Part shown: in pieces, positions 2,610-61,366 of the stretch
How the letters are laid out: every line of letters starts with the position of its first letter
Numbering within the stretch: position 1 is the first letter of the stretch
DNA from: Candidatus Gastranaerophilales bacterium
Lineage (GTDB): Bacteria; Cyanobacteriota; Vampirovibrionia; Gastranaerophilales; Gastranaerophilaceae
Length of the DNA: 64,000 nucleotides
Assembly (NCBI GenBank): GCA_944323145.1
Contig: CALURJ010000005.1
Span: forward strand, 1 to 64,000
Direction of reading: 5' to 3'
Program-made: the position numbers and the translations under genes
The notes under the pieces: model-generated
The model's input: the letters and a program-made list of their open reading frames with translations, nothing else
Told to the model about the DNA's origin: nothing
Databases searched by the model: none

Positions 2610-3431
2610 TTACCAGGGATAATCATCTTTAATTTTCCAGCCGTCATATTGAATCAATGCACCGCAATAGTAGCCGAGAGAATTTTTCTTACAGCCCCTG
2701 TTGCCGTCATTTAACAAGAAATCACGTGAAACATTAGAAAAATTGCCGTCTAATCCCCAAAAATTTTGTTTTGTAATTGTTTTAGAAGTATTGAGATAAT
2801 ATGTAAAAACATCTCTGCCAACTTTATTTGGATTTTTATTGCCATTTATATCAACGTGTATAATAACTGCATGCTTGTTGCTATCAATAGATAAAATCAG
2901 AGTAGTTCCATCTTGTAAAAATATTATGTAGTGCTGGGTTGTATTAAAAGGATTATTATTTAAAAAACTATACATTTCTGGAATTCTTTTGCATTGTGTG
3001 CCGCAGTTATCAGCAACTTTCAAATAAGGTATCATATATGTGTTAATAAAATCGCTTAATGATGCGTTTGTATCATCTGAACCTGTAAAATCAAAATTCC
3101 AACCTGATGGATCACCATTTTCATTTTGCGCCATTTGAAACATTTGGGATATAGTTGTATAACTCTTTTTAAGTTTGTTTACCGTGACGTCTTTTTGATA
3201 TTTAGTGATAAGCACGGGCATTGTAATTGCCGCAACAACTCCTATTATCCCGAGTGTTATTAATACCTCGGCAAGAGTAAAAGCTCGTTTGGTATATTGG
3301 AAAATATTGTGATGTATAATATCATTACTATGACATATGTTTTTTTTAACGTAAAGCCATTTGGCAGAAACGCTTATACTGCCACGTTTTGCGGGGGGGG
3401 GGGTAACTCTAAAAGCTGCTTCTCTATCCAT
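2610..3431 (-). CDS. Prepilin-like protein P1 with poly-C tract in leader
   Basis: A 273-residue protein with a type IV prepilin N-terminus, RAFTLAEVLITLGIIGV, at residues 49-65. It should be cut by prepilin peptidase before Phe51 and act in a surface fibre or pseudopilus; its exact role is unknown. Ala, not Gly, precedes the cleavage site, and the Glu at position +5 is kept. The leader is unusually long (50 residues) and contains a run of 11 C near its start, coding TPPP; at this length the start ATG is in frame. The C-terminal part has DINGNKNPNKVGRDVF and a CGALIQYDGWKIKDDYPW end shared with P3 and P5. It has its own strong promoter. Confidence 0.85.
   Translation of the reverse strand: MDREAAFRVTPPPAKRGSISVSAKWLYVKKNICHSNDIIHHNIFQYTKRAFTLAEVLITLGIIGVVAAITMPVLITKYQKDVTVNKLKKSYTTISQMFQMAQNENGDPSGWNFDFTGSDDTNASLSDFINTYMIPYLKVADNCGTQCKRIPEMYSFLNNNPFNTTQHYIIFLQDGTTLILSIDSNKHAVIIHVDINGNKNPNKVGRDVFTYYLNTSKTITKQNFWGLDGNFSNVSRDFLLNDGNRGCKKNSLGYYCGALIQYDGWKIKDDYPW
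3393..3403 (-). repeat. Homopolymer tract, 11 C on the coding strand of P1
   Basis: Eleven consecutive G on the plus strand (C in the gene), about ten codons after the P1 start codon. At 11 the reading frame from the ATG runs into the pilin; a change of one or two bases would break it. Tracts of this length are prone to slipped-strand mispairing. Confidence 0.8.
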
Positions 3432-6304: not shown

Positions 6305-7291
6305 ATGTATATGTGCAAACTAAGATATGCTAAGACCTTCGGGGGGGGGGACACTGTAGGCTCCACCGAGGTTCGGAAGGCAGGAGGACAGGCAAGTTTC
6401 AATAGCTATTTAGGTAAAACTGTGACAAAAGTTATTATTGATAATAGCTTTGCCTCTATGCCTCTTCGCATCTTTGCATCTAACTTTAGCTTGCCTTCCT
6501 GCCCTCCGAGCTTCTGTTCTTCTGACCTCACCCACCCCTTTACTTCCCCTCCCCTCAAGGGAGGGGAAAAAGAGTGCTCACACCACCCCTCTCCCATAGG
6601 TGAGGGTGCTACGCACGTAGCCAACTCTAACAATATTCGTCGAGCTGCGTTCACTCTTGCAGAGGTCCTCATCACCCTCGGCATAATTGGTGTGGTTGCG
6701 GCGATGACAATTCCTAACATCGTATCTAAATATCAAAAAAAGGTGCTTGTAAGCCAGTTTAAAAAATCTTATGCATCTGTTCAAAATGCAATAAATATGA
6801 CGATAGCTGAAAATGGAACCCCTTATGAGTGTTATAATATGGGATTTGGCGGCTATCATGTTACTGACTGTGCCGTATTTTGGAACGATTTGTTGAAGCA
6901 AATGAAAGTAATTAAGACCTGTAATTATGCAGCTGACGATAAAGAATGCGGGCAGGTAAGTTATAAAACAAAAGAACAAGTTTTAGCAGAAGGCGGCAGT
7001 ATAACAAATTCTTCATGTTCTTTTTTAAATGGAGAAGGTGGGCGAAAAATTAATATTTTATCTGATGGCAGTTATATTATAAATTATGGAGGAAGCGGTC
7101 TTAGAAGCCATCACAATGTCTATTTCGCAATAGATACAAATGGCGCAAAAGGGCCTAATAAATGGGGATACGATTTATTTTATATGGTTCTTAACCGTGA
7201 AAGTATGAGCAAAGATGTTGTTGTGATGGATGAAGTTTGTGCAATTAAAGAAAAAGGCGGTTATTACGTATCTGAAATAATGCAAGAATAA
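6305..7291 (+). CDS. Prepilin-like protein P2 with poly-G and repeat-derived leader
   Basis: A 328-residue prepilin-like protein; the motif RAAFTLAEVLITLGIIGV begins near residue 113, far later than the usual under-30-residue leader. The leader reads through a run of 10 G (FGGGD), an inverted GGAAGGCAGGAGG-type repeat, and two GC-rich palindromes coding SPPLKGGEK and PSPIGEGA. At 10 G the frame from ATG to pilin is open. A second ATG two codons in has better spacing to a GAGG site. The mature part has DTNGAKGPNKWGYDLF, a motif common to the family, and several Cys. The start abuts accC. Function beyond an expected place in a pilus-like fibre is unknown. Confidence 0.75.
   Translation: MYMCKLRYAKTFGGGDTVGSTEVRKAGGQASFNSYLGKTVTKVIIDNSFASMPLRIFASNFSLPSCPPSFCSSDLTHPFTSPPLKGGEKECSHHPSPIGEGATHVANSNNIRRAAFTLAEVLITLGIIGVVAAMTIPNIVSKYQKKVLVSQFKKSYASVQNAINMTIAENGTPYECYNMGFGGYHVTDCAVFWNDLLKQMKVIKTCNYAADDKECGQVSYKTKEQVLAEGGSITNSSCSFLNGEGGRKINILSDGSYIINYGGSGLRSHHNVYFAIDTNGAKGPNKWGYDLFYMVLNRESMSKDVVVMDEVCAIKEKGGYYVSEIMQE
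6341..6350 (+). repeat. Homopolymer tract, 10 G in the P2 leader
   Basis: Ten G preceded by TTC and followed by ACACTGTAGGCTCC. The downstream TAGGCTC is shared with the tracts of P3 and P5, so the tract is part of a repeated module. With 10 G the frame is open to the pilin. Confidence 0.8.
6371..6515 (+). repeat. Long inverted repeat inside the P2 leader
   Basis: The left arm CGGAAGGCAGGAGGACAGG is answered by a near-complementary right arm CTTGCCTTCCTGCCCTCCG about 100 nt later. Related sequences lie between tsf and rpsB and in the P5 leader. Confidence 0.55.
6544..6612 (+). repeat. Two GC-rich REP-like palindromes in the P2 leader
   Basis: TTCCCCTCCCC paired with GGGAGGGGAA around TCAA, then CACCCCTCTCCC paired with GGTGAGGGTG around ATA. 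These resemble palindromic repeats usually found between genes, yet here they lie inside an open frame and code SPPLKGGE and PSPIGEGA. Confidence 0.6.
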
Positions 7292-10825: not shown

Positions 10826-10990
10826 ATGAAAGATATATTAAAAGCTTTGCTGAAAACGGTTTCGGCTCTCAACAAATCAGTTGAGCCGGTTACTATGTCA
10901 GATAATTCAGCAGATGAAAAGCTAATTCAATCATCTGACAAACTAAGAGATTTGAAAAGTGTTTCAAAAGACGAGGATAAATCTAATTAA
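10826..10990 (+). CDS. Small hypothetical protein
   Basis: A 54-residue reading frame, MKDILKALLKTVSALNKSVE at the N-terminus and a charged Lys/Asp/Ser-rich C-terminus. It has no clear ribosome site, and its 3' end overlaps the end of mutS (opposite strand) by 8 nt. The amphipathic start and hydrophilic tail recall the small protein at 31179. It may be real or chance. Confidence 0.4.
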   Translation: MKDILKALLKTVSALNKSVEPVTMSDNSADEKLIQSSDKLRDLKSVSKDEDKSN

Positions 10991-13559
10991 ATAAATTTAA
11001 CTGTGGGACTTCCACATTTGGAACATCAGAATTACGCTTGCGTGTTGCAAGATTGTTTGAATAATCCTTCTGCATTCTCGTCATTAAGTCCTCCGAACGT
11101 TTTATAACCGCATTTGGAAGCCCTGCCATTTTGGCAACCTGAATCCCGTAACTCTTGCTTGCTCCGCCCTGAACAATTTTTCGTAAAAATTCAATTTCTC
11201 CGTTTTCTTCAGATATTGTAATTCTGTAATTTTTTATCTGAGGATAAGTTTGAGTCATTACATTTAATTCATGATAATGTGTTGCAAATATGCAGCGAGC
11301 CTTGATTTTAGTTGCAATATATTCTGCAACAGCCCATGCAATGGCAACTCCGTCATACGTACTTGTGCCTCTGCCGATTTCATCCAGTAAAATCAGACTT
11401 CTTTCCGTAGCTGAATTTAAAATACATGCGGTTTCAACCATTTCAACCATAAATGTTGACTGCCCGAGGGTTAAATCGTCTGATGCACCGACTCTTGTGA
11501 AGATTTTGTCAATTATACCTATTTTTGCAAAATCCGCAGGAACCCATGAACCTATTTGAGCTAAAATTGCAATCAGGGCATTTTGCCTCATATACGTTGA
11601 CTTACCTGCCATATTTGGTCCGGTTAAAATCATAAACTGTGTTGCTTCAGATGAATTGCATTTTAATTCCAAATCGTTCGGCACATATTCACCCAATGGA
11701 AGAATTTTCTCCAAAACCGGATGACGACCGTTTTTAACAATAAAATCGTCAGATTCATCAATTATCGGTTTACAATAGTTATTTTCAACGGCTGCCTGTG
11801 CAAGACCAGCATAGACATCACATAATGAGATGCACTGAGCAATTTCCCTTATTTTCGTGACAAATTCTTTTGAATACTCTCTGAAATCACAGAAGAGTTT
11901 GTATTCAAGCTCGGTTGATTTAAATTTGGCAGAAAGTACATCATCTTCATGTTTTTTTAATTCTTCCGTAATAAATCTTTCACCGTTAGTAAGAGTTTGT
12001 TTTCTTATGTAACCTTCAGGAATTTGATTAAGGTAAGAATTTGAAATTTCAATAAAGTAGCCGAAAACTTTGTTAAATCCGACTTTAAGAGATTTAATTC
12101 CGGTTCTTTCTTTTTCCTGCTCTTCAAAATTTTTGAGCCATTGTTCACCGCCTGTCAGAAGTTCGCGGAAATAATCAAGTTCTCCTGACACTCCGTCTTT
12201 TAGTATCCCGCCGTCTTTTATCAGTGCGGGGGCCTCATCTGATATTGTTTTATCAATAAGTGCCGTATATTCGACAATTTCATCTTTATATTTTTCTATT
12301 TGCTCAAGCGGATTATATTGAAGTGTTGATGAAGCCTGTAAAAGCTCCGGCAGCATCGCAAGCGATGTTTTTAAACTCAAAAAATCTCTGGGGTTTGCAG
12401 AGTTGTTAGACATCCTTGTTGCGAGTCTTTGAATATCATAAACTTTTTCTAAAAGATTACAGAGATTAATCCTTTCATCATTTTTTTCAACGAGTTCGGA
12501 AATACAATTTTGTCTTGCAATAATATCTTCTGCTCTTTTTAACGGCTGACAAATCCAGTTTTTTAAAAGCCTTGCTCCCATATTGGTTTTGGTTTTATCT
12601 ACAGCCCATAAAAGCGACCCGAACTTATTCTTATCCCTTAAAGTTTCTGTTAATTCAAGGTTTCTTCTTGTACTGCCGTCCAAAATCATAAATTCGGAAA
12701 GTTCGTAGGGCTCAATACGTTCAAATTTTGGAACGTTTTCCATCATATTTTCCCAGACATAAGCAAGTAAAGCTCCTGCAGCTCTGAATCCAAGCTTGTA
12801 GCGGCTGTAACCGAAAGCTTCAAGACTTTCTGTTTTAAAAACAGCTTTTAAATTATTTGTAGCAAAATTTTCATCAAAAACTGATGTAGGAATTTTGGAG
12901 CAGTTATAAAGTTTGGTAATTCTTTCAGGAAGGTTTATTTTTTCATCGGGAACAATCTGAAAAGGCATAATTTTTGCTCTTATTGAAGGCCCTAAAACTT
13001 CAGTCGGGGCTATTCTTGCAAGTTCATCCATAATGAGATTTAGAGGGGCCTGAGTAACCTTAAATTCTCCTGTTGAAATATCTGAGTAAGAAAATCCGTA
13101 AAAATCACTTTTTTCATCTTTAAAAAGCGCACAAATGTAGTTGTTTGAATTCTGCTTTAAAAAATCGCTTTCTGTAAGTGTTCCCGATGTGATAATTCTT
13201 GTAATACCGCGTTTTACAATTCCTTTAGCAAATTTCGGGTCTTCAAGCTGATCGCATATAATGACTTTGTAATTTTTTTGAACAAGTTTTTCCAAATAGG
13301 AATTTATAGCCTTAGCAGGAATTCCCGCAAGCGGAATTCTTCCGAATTTACCCTGTTCTCTACCTGTAAGGGTAAGTTCAAGTTCTTTTGACATTGTAAC
13401 AGCGTCTTCAAAAAAAGTTTCATAAAAGTCGCCGAGTCTGTAAAGCAGAATTTTGTCCGGATGCTGGTGTTTTATTTTTAAATATTCCTGCATAGCAGGG
13501 GTAAGGTCTTCTACCTTTATATCCGCAGTATTGATGTAATTGATTTCAGGTTTTTTCAT
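10983..13559 (-). CDS. mutS: DNA mismatch repair ATPase MutS
   Basis: An 858-residue mismatch-recognition protein. The N-terminal mismatch-binding loop is GDFYETF (the Phe-x-Glu pair), the C-terminal ATPase has Walker A GPNMAGKSTYMRQ, Walker B LILLDEIGRGTSTYDG and ATHYHEL. The open frame extends 13 codons further, but MKKPEINYIN is the natural start. Upstream is an extended -10, TGTTATACT, 12 nt before the ATG with no ribosome site, so the leader is very short or absent. The intergenic space to the divergent gene is only 37 bp. If the pilin tracts are phase-variable, MutS activity would affect their switching rate. Confidence 0.96.
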   Translation of the reverse strand: MKKPEINYINTADIKVEDLTPAMQEYLKIKHQHPDKILLYRLGDFYETFFEDAVTMSKELELTLTGREQGKFGRIPLAGIPAKAINSYLEKLVQKNYKVIICDQLEDPKFAKGIVKRGITRIITSGTLTESDFLKQNSNNYICALFKDEKSDFYGFSYSDISTGEFKVTQAPLNLIMDELARIAPTEVLGPSIRAKIMPFQIVPDEKINLPERITKLYNCSKIPTSVFDENFATNNLKAVFKTESLEAFGYSRYKLGFRAAGALLAYVWENMMENVPKFERIEPYELSEFMILDGSTRRNLELTETLRDKNKFGSLLWAVDKTKTNMGARLLKNWICQPLKRAEDIIARQNCISELVEKNDERINLCNLLEKVYDIQRLATRMSNNSANPRDFLSLKTSLAMLPELLQASSTLQYNPLEQIEKYKDEIVEYTALIDKTISDEAPALIKDGGILKDGVSGELDYFRELLTGGEQWLKNFEEQEKERTGIKSLKVGFNKVFGYFIEISNSYLNQIPEGYIRKQTLTNGERFITEELKKHEDDVLSAKFKSTELEYKLFCDFREYSKEFVTKIREIAQCISLCDVYAGLAQAAVENNYCKPIIDESDDFIVKNGRHPVLEKILPLGEYVPNDLELKCNSSEATQFMILTGPNMAGKSTYMRQNALIAILAQIGSWVPADFAKIGIIDKIFTRVGASDDLTLGQSTFMVEMVETACILNSATERSLILLDEIGRGTSTYDGVAIAWAVAEYIATKIKARCIFATHYHELNVMTQTYPQIKNYRITISEENGEIEFLRKIVQGGASKSYGIQVAKMAGLPNAVIKRSEDLMTRMQKDYSNNLATRKRNSDVPNVEVPQLNLFN

Positions 13560-13596
13560 AGTTATAATAATAGTATAACATGACAAGGATTTCAAC

Positions 13597-14196
13597 ATGG
13601 GTTGTTTAAAAAATATTTTGAGAGCAATAATACTTACACTGGCTGTTATAGGTTTTCTTTCGTTAGGCGGAAAAGAACTTATTGCCGGCTTAATTCACAA
13701 TTACATAAATCCTTCAAAAGAAACAGTTCTTGAAAGAGCTCAAAAGGTAGGGGATTTTTCAAAAATTAACGATGAATTTGAAATAGAAAAGGCCGCGGGG
13801 ATAATGGGTTATAATGCTGTTGTTGCCGAGCACAAGGCTACAGGGCAAAAAATGTTTGTTGTTGAATCAGGTGATAAGGCCATATTGACTGCTGAAGATA
13901 TAAAATCTGATGATGTTGAAGAGAAGTTAAGAAAAGCTTTGAGTAAGGTTAAATATCAGGCAGTATCGGTGGATGAGCTTAAGGTCACAAAGCACGGAAC
14001 AATGAATTCATACGGGAAAGAGGTTCCGTTTGTGAAATTTGAAGCAAAAGTAAAGAAACTCCCGATAGGTGAGGTCGGCGGGATTATTTCTGTAGCGCAG
14101 ACAAAAGACGGAGAACCGAGACTTTTAATATCCGCAAATGAAAAAAATAAATATTCCCAGTTGATTTCTGATGAATTTTTCAGAAAAATAAAATAA
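13597..14196 (+). CDS. Membrane-anchored hypothetical protein
   Basis: A 199-residue protein with one N-terminal hydrophobic segment (about residues 8-32, AIILTLAVIGFLSLGG) and a soluble remainder of mixed alpha/beta character. I do not recognise the family. The start follows AAGGA at 7-nt spacing. It is divergent from mutS and shares a compact promoter region: a plus-strand TATAAT overlaps the minus-strand -10 candidates. Confidence 0.75.
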   Translation: MGCLKNILRAIILTLAVIGFLSLGGKELIAGLIHNYINPSKETVLERAQKVGDFSKINDEFEIEKAAGIMGYNAVVAEHKATGQKMFVVESGDKAILTAEDIKSDDVEEKLRKALSKVKYQAVSVDELKVTKHGTMNSYGKEVPFVKFEAKVKKLPIGEVGGIISVAQTKDGEPRLLISANEKNKYSQLISDEFFRKIK

Positions 14197-28686: not shown

Positions 28687-28715
28687 TTGAAAATTTCTTG
28701 TAAATATGTTAAAAT
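28687..28715 (+). promoter_or_regulatory. Promoter of pilin P3
   Basis: TTGAAA, 17-nt spacer and extended -10 TGTTAAAAT, the same form as the P4 promoter. The likely start codon GTG at 28753 follows a GGGAG site. Confidence 0.65.
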
Positions 28716-28765
28716 ATACATGTTAAATATGAAAATGAAAGGGAGTTTTAGAGTGAAAAGATTGA

Positions 28766-29758
28766 TTGAGAGCTTCGGGGGGGGGAGTTCTAGGCTCCGC
28801 TGTAGGATTAGAGGTCACGAAGTCAGGAAGGCGAGCCGTTATCTGTGTGCAGTGCCCGCGTAAAAATAAATTCCTTCACTTATTAGGTAAGGTAAGGATG
28901 ATTTTTTTTCAATACCTACCCCTAACTTTTATCCTAATCAGGGCGAGGAAGAGTAATTCCCCGAAACGAACTAATTCTTCTAAACTCTCTTTAATCTTCA
29001 CATTTCACACTTCACTTAAAAAGAAAGCTGCGTTCACTTTAGCCGAAGTTTTAATTACCCTGGGAATTATTGGTGTAGTTGCAGCAATTACTTTACCGAC
29101 ACTTATTACAAAGCACCAAAAGCATGTAACGGTCAACAGATTAAAAAAGGCAGTATCAAGTTTTGAACAGGCTATAACACGTGCTCAGGCTGATTATGGT
29201 GATATGTCAGGCTGGACATTTTTACAATCGGGCACGGATTTATCAACTGATTCTTATTCGGTAAGAGCAGAACGTGAAATATTTATTAAGAATTACATAA
29301 TGAAATATATGCAGATATCAAAGGATTGCGGATTGGATAATGTTAATAAATGCCAGACCTATACTACAACATCTTTGGATAAATCTTCTTTTAAGCTTAA
29401 TATAAATTATGGCAGAATGTTTATTACTTCTGACGGAACATTATATAGTATAATGGTTGATAATTATATGATTACGGATGATGATGGAGATCAAACACCT
29501 GTAACAAACGGACATTTACTTGTTACCGTAGATTTAAACGGAGCGGGCGGCCCTAATATATACGGTAGGGATCTGTTTATAATAGATGTTTCTTCCGCTA
29601 ATAAAAAAATTGCTCTGTATGGCGCGGGACGTGACAGGGAAACTTTAAAAAATAATTCAGGATGGGGCTGTAACAGCAGAACGTCTAAACGCTATTACTG
29701 CGGTGCATTAATTCAGCAAGACGGATGGCAGATAAAAGAGGATTATTTATGGCGATAA
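28766..29758 (+). CDS. Prepilin-like protein P3, apparently out of frame with its start
   Basis: A prepilin-like protein with KAAFTLAEVLITLGIIGV and, near the end, DLNGAGGPNIYGRDLF and CGALIQQDGWQIKEDYLWR, close to P5. The pilin frame is open from a TTG at this position. The better start is a GTG at 28753 (GGGAG site, MKRLIESF), but with 9 G in the tract it is out of frame and stops after 36 codons; 8 or 11 G would join it to the pilin. An internal ATG at 28898 (51 codons before... the motif lies 45 residues later) could give a basal product. The leader is made of dispersed repeats. Expected in a pilus-like fibre if made. Confidence 0.7.
   Translation: MRASGGGVLGSAVGLEVTKSGRRAVICVQCPRKNKFLHLLGKVRMIFFQYLPLTFILIRARKSNSPKRTNSSKLSLIFTFHTSLKKKAAFTLAEVLITLGIIGVVAAITLPTLITKHQKHVTVNRLKKAVSSFEQAITRAQADYGDMSGWTFLQSGTDLSTDSYSVRAEREIFIKNYIMKYMQISKDCGLDNVNKCQTYTTTSLDKSSFKLNINYGRMFITSDGTLYSIMVDNYMITDDDGDQTPVTNGHLLVTVDLNGAGGPNIYGRDLFIIDVSSANKKIALYGAGRDRETLKNNSGWGCNSRTSKRYYCGALIQQDGWQIKEDYLWR
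28777..28785 (+). repeat. Homopolymer tract, 9 G in the P3 leader
   Basis: Nine G after CTTC and before AGTTCTAGGCTCCGC. From GTG 28753 this length leads to a stop (TAA at 28861). Eight or eleven G would restore the frame into the pilin. Confidence 0.8.
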
Positions 29759-60404: not shown

Positions 60405-60414
60405 GGGGGGGGGG
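60405..60414 (+). repeat. Homopolymer tract, 10 G in the P5 leader
   Basis: Ten G follow ATG 60375 (GGAG site; MKRLRDIKNV) and are followed by CACTCTAGGCTCGGC. At 10 G this start ends at TAG after 15 codons; 8 or 11 G would put it in frame with the pilin. Confidence 0.8.
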
Positions 60415-60475
60415 CACTCTAGGCTCGGCTGGAGGGCCGGTAGCCCCGAAGGCAGGAGGTCAGGCCAATATCGTC

Positions 60476-61366
60476 ATGCTGAACTTGGTTCAGTATCTCT
60501 TATTTGGAAGATTAGAAGATAAGAGGGTCGGAAGGTATGCTAGTATCGGCGTTCAAAGCCTGTTTAAAAATAAACAAAAATCTGCTTTCACATTAGTGGA
60601 AGGCGCTGTGCCTGTAGCTCTGCCGAACAGTCAACGTCAAGCCGCATTCACTTTAGCAGAGGTTTTAATCACCCTAGGCATTATTGGTGTAATCGCCGCA
60701 ATGACAGTACCAGCACTGATTACCAAGTATCAAAAAGAGGTTACTGTTAATGAATTGAAAAAATCTGTTTCAAGTCTTGAACAGGCATTGACCCGTGCAC
60801 AAGTTGATTATGGTGATATGACAGGGTGGAGTTATATACAGTCTGGAATTGAAAGTTCGTCTGATCTAATTAAAATTGAACGTGATAAATTTGTCGAGGT
60901 TTATATAATGCAATATATGCAGATTGCGACTGATTGTGGCTCAGATAACGTGAATAAATGCTCTAATTATATGATAACATCTTTGGATAAAACTTCATAC
61001 AAAATGAATATAACTAACGGAAGAATATTTATTACTACGAACGGTACTTTATATAATATTGCAAGTGATACTATCGTTCAAAAAGATGATAAAGGAAATT
61101 CTAAATATGTTTCAAATGGTCGTCTTCTGATTACTGTCGATATAAATGGTAAGTCTGGCCCTAATATATACGGGCGTGATGTATTTGTATTGAGTGTTGA
61201 TTCATCTGCTAAAAAGCTCCAAATGTTCGGGACTGGAAAATCTAGAGATGATTTGAAAGATGGATCAGAGTTTAGTTGTAACAGTAGAACAGCAAAACGT
61301 TTTTATTGTGGTGCACTTATTCAACAAGATGGTTGGCAAATCAAAGATGATTATCTCTGGAGATAA
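60476..61366 (+). CDS. Prepilin-like protein P5, apparently out of frame with its start
   Basis: A 296-residue frame with AAFTLAEVLITLGIIGV at residue 56 onward, DINGKSGPNIYGRDVF, and CGALIQQDGWQIKDDYLWR, close to P3. The listed ATG lies inside a GTCATGCTGAACTTGGTTCAG-type repeat and has no ribosome site. The natural start, ATG 60375 with GGAG, is cut off by the 10-G frame. The leader also carries a partial earlier copy of the prepilin motif, SAFTLVEG, 20 residues before the real one. It ends 1 nt from the convergent permease stop. If expressed, it should be a pilin. Confidence 0.7.
   Translation: MLNLVQYLLFGRLEDKRVGRYASIGVQSLFKNKQKSAFTLVEGAVPVALPNSQRQAAFTLAEVLITLGIIGVIAAMTVPALITKYQKEVTVNELKKSVSSLEQALTRAQVDYGDMTGWSYIQSGIESSSDLIKIERDKFVEVYIMQYMQIATDCGSDNVNKCSNYMITSLDKTSYKMNITNGRIFITTNGTLYNIASDTIVQKDDKGNSKYVSNGRLLITVDINGKSGPNIYGRDVFVLSVDSSAKKLQMFGTGKSRDDLKDGSEFSCNSRTAKRFYCGALIQQDGWQIKDDYLWR
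60587..60664 (+). repeat. Partial tandem copy of the prepilin motif in P5
   Basis: CTTTCACATTAGTGGAAG and CATTCACTTTAGCAGAGG, 60 nt apart in frame, code AFTLVEG and AFTLAEV. The 43-nt insert between includes CTCTGCCGAA, also found beside tRNA-Leu. Confidence 0.6.

Follow-up and report, generated by a model that had tools for sequence, protein, structure and literature searches.

A pilin gene with a G tract after its start codon as a probable member of a genus-wide phase-variable family in Gastranaerophilales

How could a pilin be produced from a gene whose start codon and pilin-coding sequence lie in different reading frames? This question is raised by P3, a pilin-like gene encoded in positions 1 to 64,000 of contig CALURJ010000005.1 (assembly GCA_944323145.1) from a Candidatus Gastranaerophilales bacterium, a 64-kb stretch referred to here as the window. 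A first-pass annotation of this DNA had proposed that P3 is a slipped-strand phase-variable gene in the OFF state. According to the data presented below, P3 probably belongs to a family of phase-variable pilins, spread across its genus, in which the length of a G tract would set the reading frame, P3 being OFF at nine G and ON at 8 or 11.

The first codons of P3 are GTG AAA AGA TTG ATT GAG AGC TTC, with the GTG at 28753-28755 and a Shine-Dalgarno-like GGGAG at 28741-28745; these letters were read directly, and all features of P3 lie on the forward strand. The tract follows at 28777-28785 in the context TTC-G9-A (TTC-G10-C in the sister species G015). Read through G9, the zero frame from the GTG (28753-28863) has 36 codons and ends at the TAA of 28861-28863, which would be the OFF product. 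The pilin frame is open from 28766, across the tract, until the pilin ends at 29758, forming an open reading frame of 330 residues (28766-29758) with profile matches to the N_methyl motif (PF07963) and DUF6613 (PF20318). When the tract length was varied in silico, n = 8 and n = 11 gave products of 334-335 residues including AFTLAEVLITLG, which is reached through a stop-free stretch of 81 codons, and n = 7, 9, 10, 12, and 13 gave only 12-37 residues. The first-pass annotation had reported the GGGAG, the 36-codon frame, the joining of start and pilin at 8 or 11 G, and an MKRL start common to P3 and pilin P5 (ATG 60375), all of which hold. It had also credited P3 with a strong promoter; a TTGAAA-17-TAAAAT site with an extended -10 TG does exist at 28687-28715, but about 1.4 sites of this type are expected by chance in 500 bases, so that it provides no evidence on its own. 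The PF07963 match exceeds the cut-off and corresponds to a prepilin motif followed by a hydrophobic helix. Unlike the short leader of type IV pilin-like proteins, that of P3 would have ~90 residues when ON; in the tract-free pilins of the same genome (G000), leaders are mostly short, often with just 3-9 residues.

In the proposed mechanism, translation would start at GTG 28753, and the tract, located just after the start and within an unusually long prepilin leader, would set the frame by its length. As assembled, with G9, P3 would be OFF and yield a 36-residue peptide, and at 8 or 11 G the start would instead be continuous with the linker and the pilin. These changes would occur in the DNA, most likely through replication slippage at a leading-strand G run. 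Across the genus, the ground state would be 10 G, with pilins mostly OFF and other tract-bearing genes mostly ON, and one additional G would turn a pilin ON. The architecture of the loci, the translated linker, the motif, the strand rule, the frame bias, and the length differences between species are observed; the slippage process, switching within a strain, the gain of one G as the step that usually turns a pilin ON, and a function for the pilins are inferred.

The sequence between the tract and the AFTLAEVLI motif, named here the linker, indicates that the pilin frame is read from the tract onwards. The linker of P3 (28786-29029) contains 0, 9, and 7 stops in the three frames, with the pilin frame being the only one without stops. 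The pilin frame is likewise free of stops at 33 of the 34 loci of G000, 64/64 of G015, 30/30 of G025, and 39/39 of G007, leaving out loci with stops in all three frames. Since the linkers of the four genomes are stop-free in the pilin frame in 166/167 cases, and over 23.2 kb their remaining frames contain 601 and 781 stops, they must be translated. Loci are not fully independent, as linkers share repeated modules, although the contrast between frames is complete all the same. A linker with pilin-frame stops, at L015, probably belongs to a broken gene. As a separate observation, the repeated modules (KNKFLPLLGKVRMGF.., LIREG..SLKRTYRPNVLTSYRLKK), present for instance at window positions 28786-29029, 6351-6637, and 60415-60634, resemble intergenic palindromic repeats read in frame.

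The pilin might instead start inside the linker, leaving the upstream frame as a short leader or regulatory open reading frame. P3 does hold a possible in-frame ATG at 28898-28900, with AAGG 5 nt upstream, and 35 of the 64 linkers of G015 contain an internal start with a partial Shine-Dalgarno site. However, the pilin frame has no stops in the linker part preceding 28898 either, staying open as far as the tract and across it, and many loci with the identical architecture have no internal start at all (11/32, 17/64, 5/30, and, in G007, 23/39), so that their pilins can be made only through the tract. Internal initiation is consequently considered very improbable.

Which tract length turns a pilin ON was addressed by computing, for each pilin locus, the length class (modulo 3) that joins the start to the pilin. 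This class is n = 2 mod 3 (8, 11, 14) in 144 of the 166 loci, class 1 in 14, and class 0 in 8, a bias independent of start distance, linker length, and orientation, and least strict in G000 (20/33). Because nearly all tracts have 10 G, a single base is what most pilins lack to be ON. Outside G000, about one pilin in 25 is read as ON, and ON pilins exist at n = 11 (L035, L108, L161, L023, and the locus at window position 3393).

A systematic deficit of one base could also be explained if G10 or C10 were a slippery site for programmed -1 ribosomal frameshifting, or for slippage of RNA polymerase, which would provide low levels of pilin from n = 10 genes with the DNA unchanged. The 144/166 loci in class 2, which at n = 10 lack exactly one base, would fit this explanation, as would the possible -1 slippery heptamer G GGG GGG, the early stop of the n = 10 frame past the tract (median 4 codons), and the nearly fixed tract length. 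It is nevertheless unlikely, given that the frame rule also holds for poly-C mRNA (38/44 antisense loci), that the strict leading-strand orientation described below belongs to the DNA and plays no part in translation, and that n = 10 glycosyltransferases with the identical motif are in frame. Nor is a -1 shift constantly required, as among the 20 pilin loci whose tract length is not 10, 12 keep class 2 and only 3 are compensated; the former indicate that the frame design follows DNA length. Alternatively, tracts of 11 G might have been undercalled as 10 (and that of P3 as 9) during assembly, in which case the pilins would be in frame and expressed. Homopolymers are error-prone, and a single missed G would account for most of the pilins being out of frame. 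This possibility is quite improbable, because non-pilin carriers in the same context keep the frame with their tracts as assembled (9/9 in G000, including one with 11 G, and 4/6 in G015), a result that argues against both a uniform undercall and obligatory frameshifting at the motif. Moreover, tracts of n >= 11 are called where present, the pattern is repeated in the four assemblies examined for frame, and P3 and its sister copy also differ by substitutions adjoining the tract.

A phase-variable tract is expected to be more mutable than its surroundings, and this was observed in the comparison with G015, between species and for a small number of loci. The tract length differs by one G in four of seven orthologue pairs (G000/G015: 11/10 at window 3393, 9/10 at 28777, 10/9 at 60405, and 11/10 at L023). 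Flanking regions have 16 insertions or deletions in 8,266 columns, or ~0.019 expected changes per tract, against which four changes in seven tracts have p about 5e-6. These changes support phase variation at the DNA level. The orthologue of P3 (contig CALUVW010000006.1; protein 95% identical) is likewise located directly downstream of tuf and has ATG, G10, and CACTTTAGG, where P3 has GTG, G9, and AGTTCTAGG; both are OFF. The cluster of changes beside the P3 tract hints at conversion from another copy. With its GTG and G9-A, compared with the ATG and G10-C of its sister, P3 is an atypical copy and may be decaying.

The orientation of the tracts also points to the DNA. The motif runs of G000 have a single orientation within every contig, and in four genomes with long contigs only 6 switches were found among 176 neighbouring tract pairs, as expected if they were placed at the origin and terminus. 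GC skew is positive for the G strand in all but 4 of 122 records (118; stretches >9 kb, which neighbouring tracts share), and hence it is the leading strand, whatever the direction of the gene.

P3 is not an isolated case. In the window, 12 overlapping matches to runs of eight or more G were found versus 0.29 expected. Pilin P5 has a G10 tract at 60405-60414 (+), OFF at 10 and ON at 11 (G9 in the G015 orthologue); a third pilin (ATG 6311) has a G10 tract at 6341-6350 (+) that is in frame, and therefore ON, at 10; and a G11 tract at 3393-3403 (+) is antisense to a minus-strand pilin (ATG 3431-3429), ON at 11 (G10 in the G015 orthologue). The whole genome (1.885 Mb, 35 contigs) contains ~45 runs of at least nine G and 59 N_methyl matches (profile search, E up to 1). 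About 43 of these runs share the motif TC-G10-C, and most are located 15-35 nt downstream of a start codon having a Shine-Dalgarno site. A C directly precedes the tract in 97-100% of cases, and a T precedes this C in most. The TC flank is common to G-strand pilins and non-pilin genes, with the T being somewhat less frequent in pilins read against the G strand. Pilin tracts occur just after the start codon in both gene orientations, about a quarter being poly-C. Non-pilin carriers, whose names rest on sequence reading rather than on profile searches, include glycosyltransferases (L013, L034, L043), a GT8-like protein (L044), an acetyltransferase-like protein (L038), and a radical SAM protein (L030), among others. 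Chance was ruled out as the origin of the runs by their counts and conserved flanks, and mobile-element insertion at pilin starts was rejected, as no common element was seen beyond the short motif.

Several individual loci are worth noting. Pilins L060 and L061 carry an in-frame G6 remnant and are, as read from their letters, locked ON. At L037:1524-1533, the tract lies in a short open reading frame that ends on a stop codon overlapping a glycosyltransferase start (ATGCCTAAGG), and the tract length may therefore act via translational coupling. A G13 run without the motif flanks (L047:1554-1566) lies outside any long open reading frame, possibly in a promoter region. In the sister species, two G10 tracts 400 bases apart (L098:2300 and 2702) precede the starts of neighbouring pilins.

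Most of the 33 genomes of the genus carry the motif at high frequency, and almost no copies occur in other genera of the order Gastranaerophilales. More than 1,200 loci were found in the genus, with TC-G(n)-C counts, summed from tables, of 7, 53, 1162, and 79 for n = 8, 9, 10, and 11, that is, exactly 10 G in ~89%. Species G021, G002, G023, G027, G029, G013, and G006 have pilins (up to ~90) and almost no TC-G10-C tracts, G002 having at least one G14 run; such species lend themselves naturally to a comparison bearing on what the motif does. Loss of mismatch repair was rejected as the cause of the tracts, since MutS was found in 32 of the 33 genomes; the window itself encodes a full-length mutS-like gene (10983-13598, minus strand; 871 residues) with GPNMAGKST and FYE motifs.

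Control of the P3 frame by tract length is thus well supported by context: dozens of loci per genome are built alike, their linkers are translated, 4/7 orthologue tracts have changed, and glycosyltransferases are among the carriers. The length changes are known between sister species only. Like a contingency locus, P3 has a tract within its coding region whose length sets the frame. The original proposal is nevertheless supported only in part: in addition to the between-species scope of the length changes, P3 is atypical, and the state of the pilins is not random, with ~89% of the tracts exactly at 10 and 144/166 pilin frames ON only at 8, 11, or 14, a pattern not predicted by a simple random contingency locus. 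Drift would spread the states, with about a third ON, whereas most pilins here share one class and few are ON. Such a spread is typical rather than defining, and lacking it marks a variant of contingency loci, not an exclusion from them. Some data weigh against phase variation of this kind. The length distribution is unusually tight (8:9:10:11 = 7:53:1162:79), which, together with the intact-looking mutS, indicates that the mutation rate may be modest; just ~1/25 of the pilins outside G000 read as ON; the conserved TC and C flanks are not required for slippage; the internal ATG of P3 at 28898 has a weak Shine-Dalgarno site; and assembled homopolymer lengths may be wrong. The conserved flanks and fixed length suggest some further control. 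It can tentatively be proposed, as a less likely reading, that instead of slipping passively TC-G10-C is in this genus the target of a dedicated, replication-coupled length control that keeps 10 and occasionally adds one G, so that a cell would express, at any one time, one or few of its tens of pilins.

If P3 and its relatives are phase variable, uncultured gut Gastranaerophilales would carry from 20 to >100 switches per genome, mostly on pilins and surface-modifying genes, and pilin choice in the gut would be directly measurable from existing metagenome reads. A search of the available literature found no relevant paper tying Gastranaerophilales or Melainabacteria to phase variation, and G-tract phase variation is known mainly from a few pathogens. 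To our knowledge, the strand rule, the constancy of the ground length, and the regular offset by one base have not been reported elsewhere. In Neisseria, a poly-G tract near the 5' end of the pilus gene pilC sets its frame, a likeness limited by the fact that pilC encodes an adhesin that has an ordinary signal peptide and is represented by one or two genes, and here tens of pilin-like genes with long leaders are affected. Antigenic variation of Neisseria pilE occurs by gene conversion from silent copies; in both systems many pilin sequences are kept in store and a G-rich element lies close to the pilin, but the copies described here each come with a start and a tract of their own. There is also a likeness with the Campylobacter phasome, in which dozens of 9-11 G tracts in open reading frames of one small genome set the frame by their length, with glycosyltransferases and other surface genes among the carriers (PMC6321876). 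Nine G account for 53% of the Campylobacter tracts and 10 G for 26% (PMC6321876), while the distribution described here is tighter, with 89% at exactly 10. The tracts of Gastranaerophilales also differ from those of Campylobacter in that about a quarter of the pilin tracts are poly-C, the flanks are fixed (TC..C), the G run always lies on the leading strand, and a length of 10 leaves nearly all of the pilins OFF.
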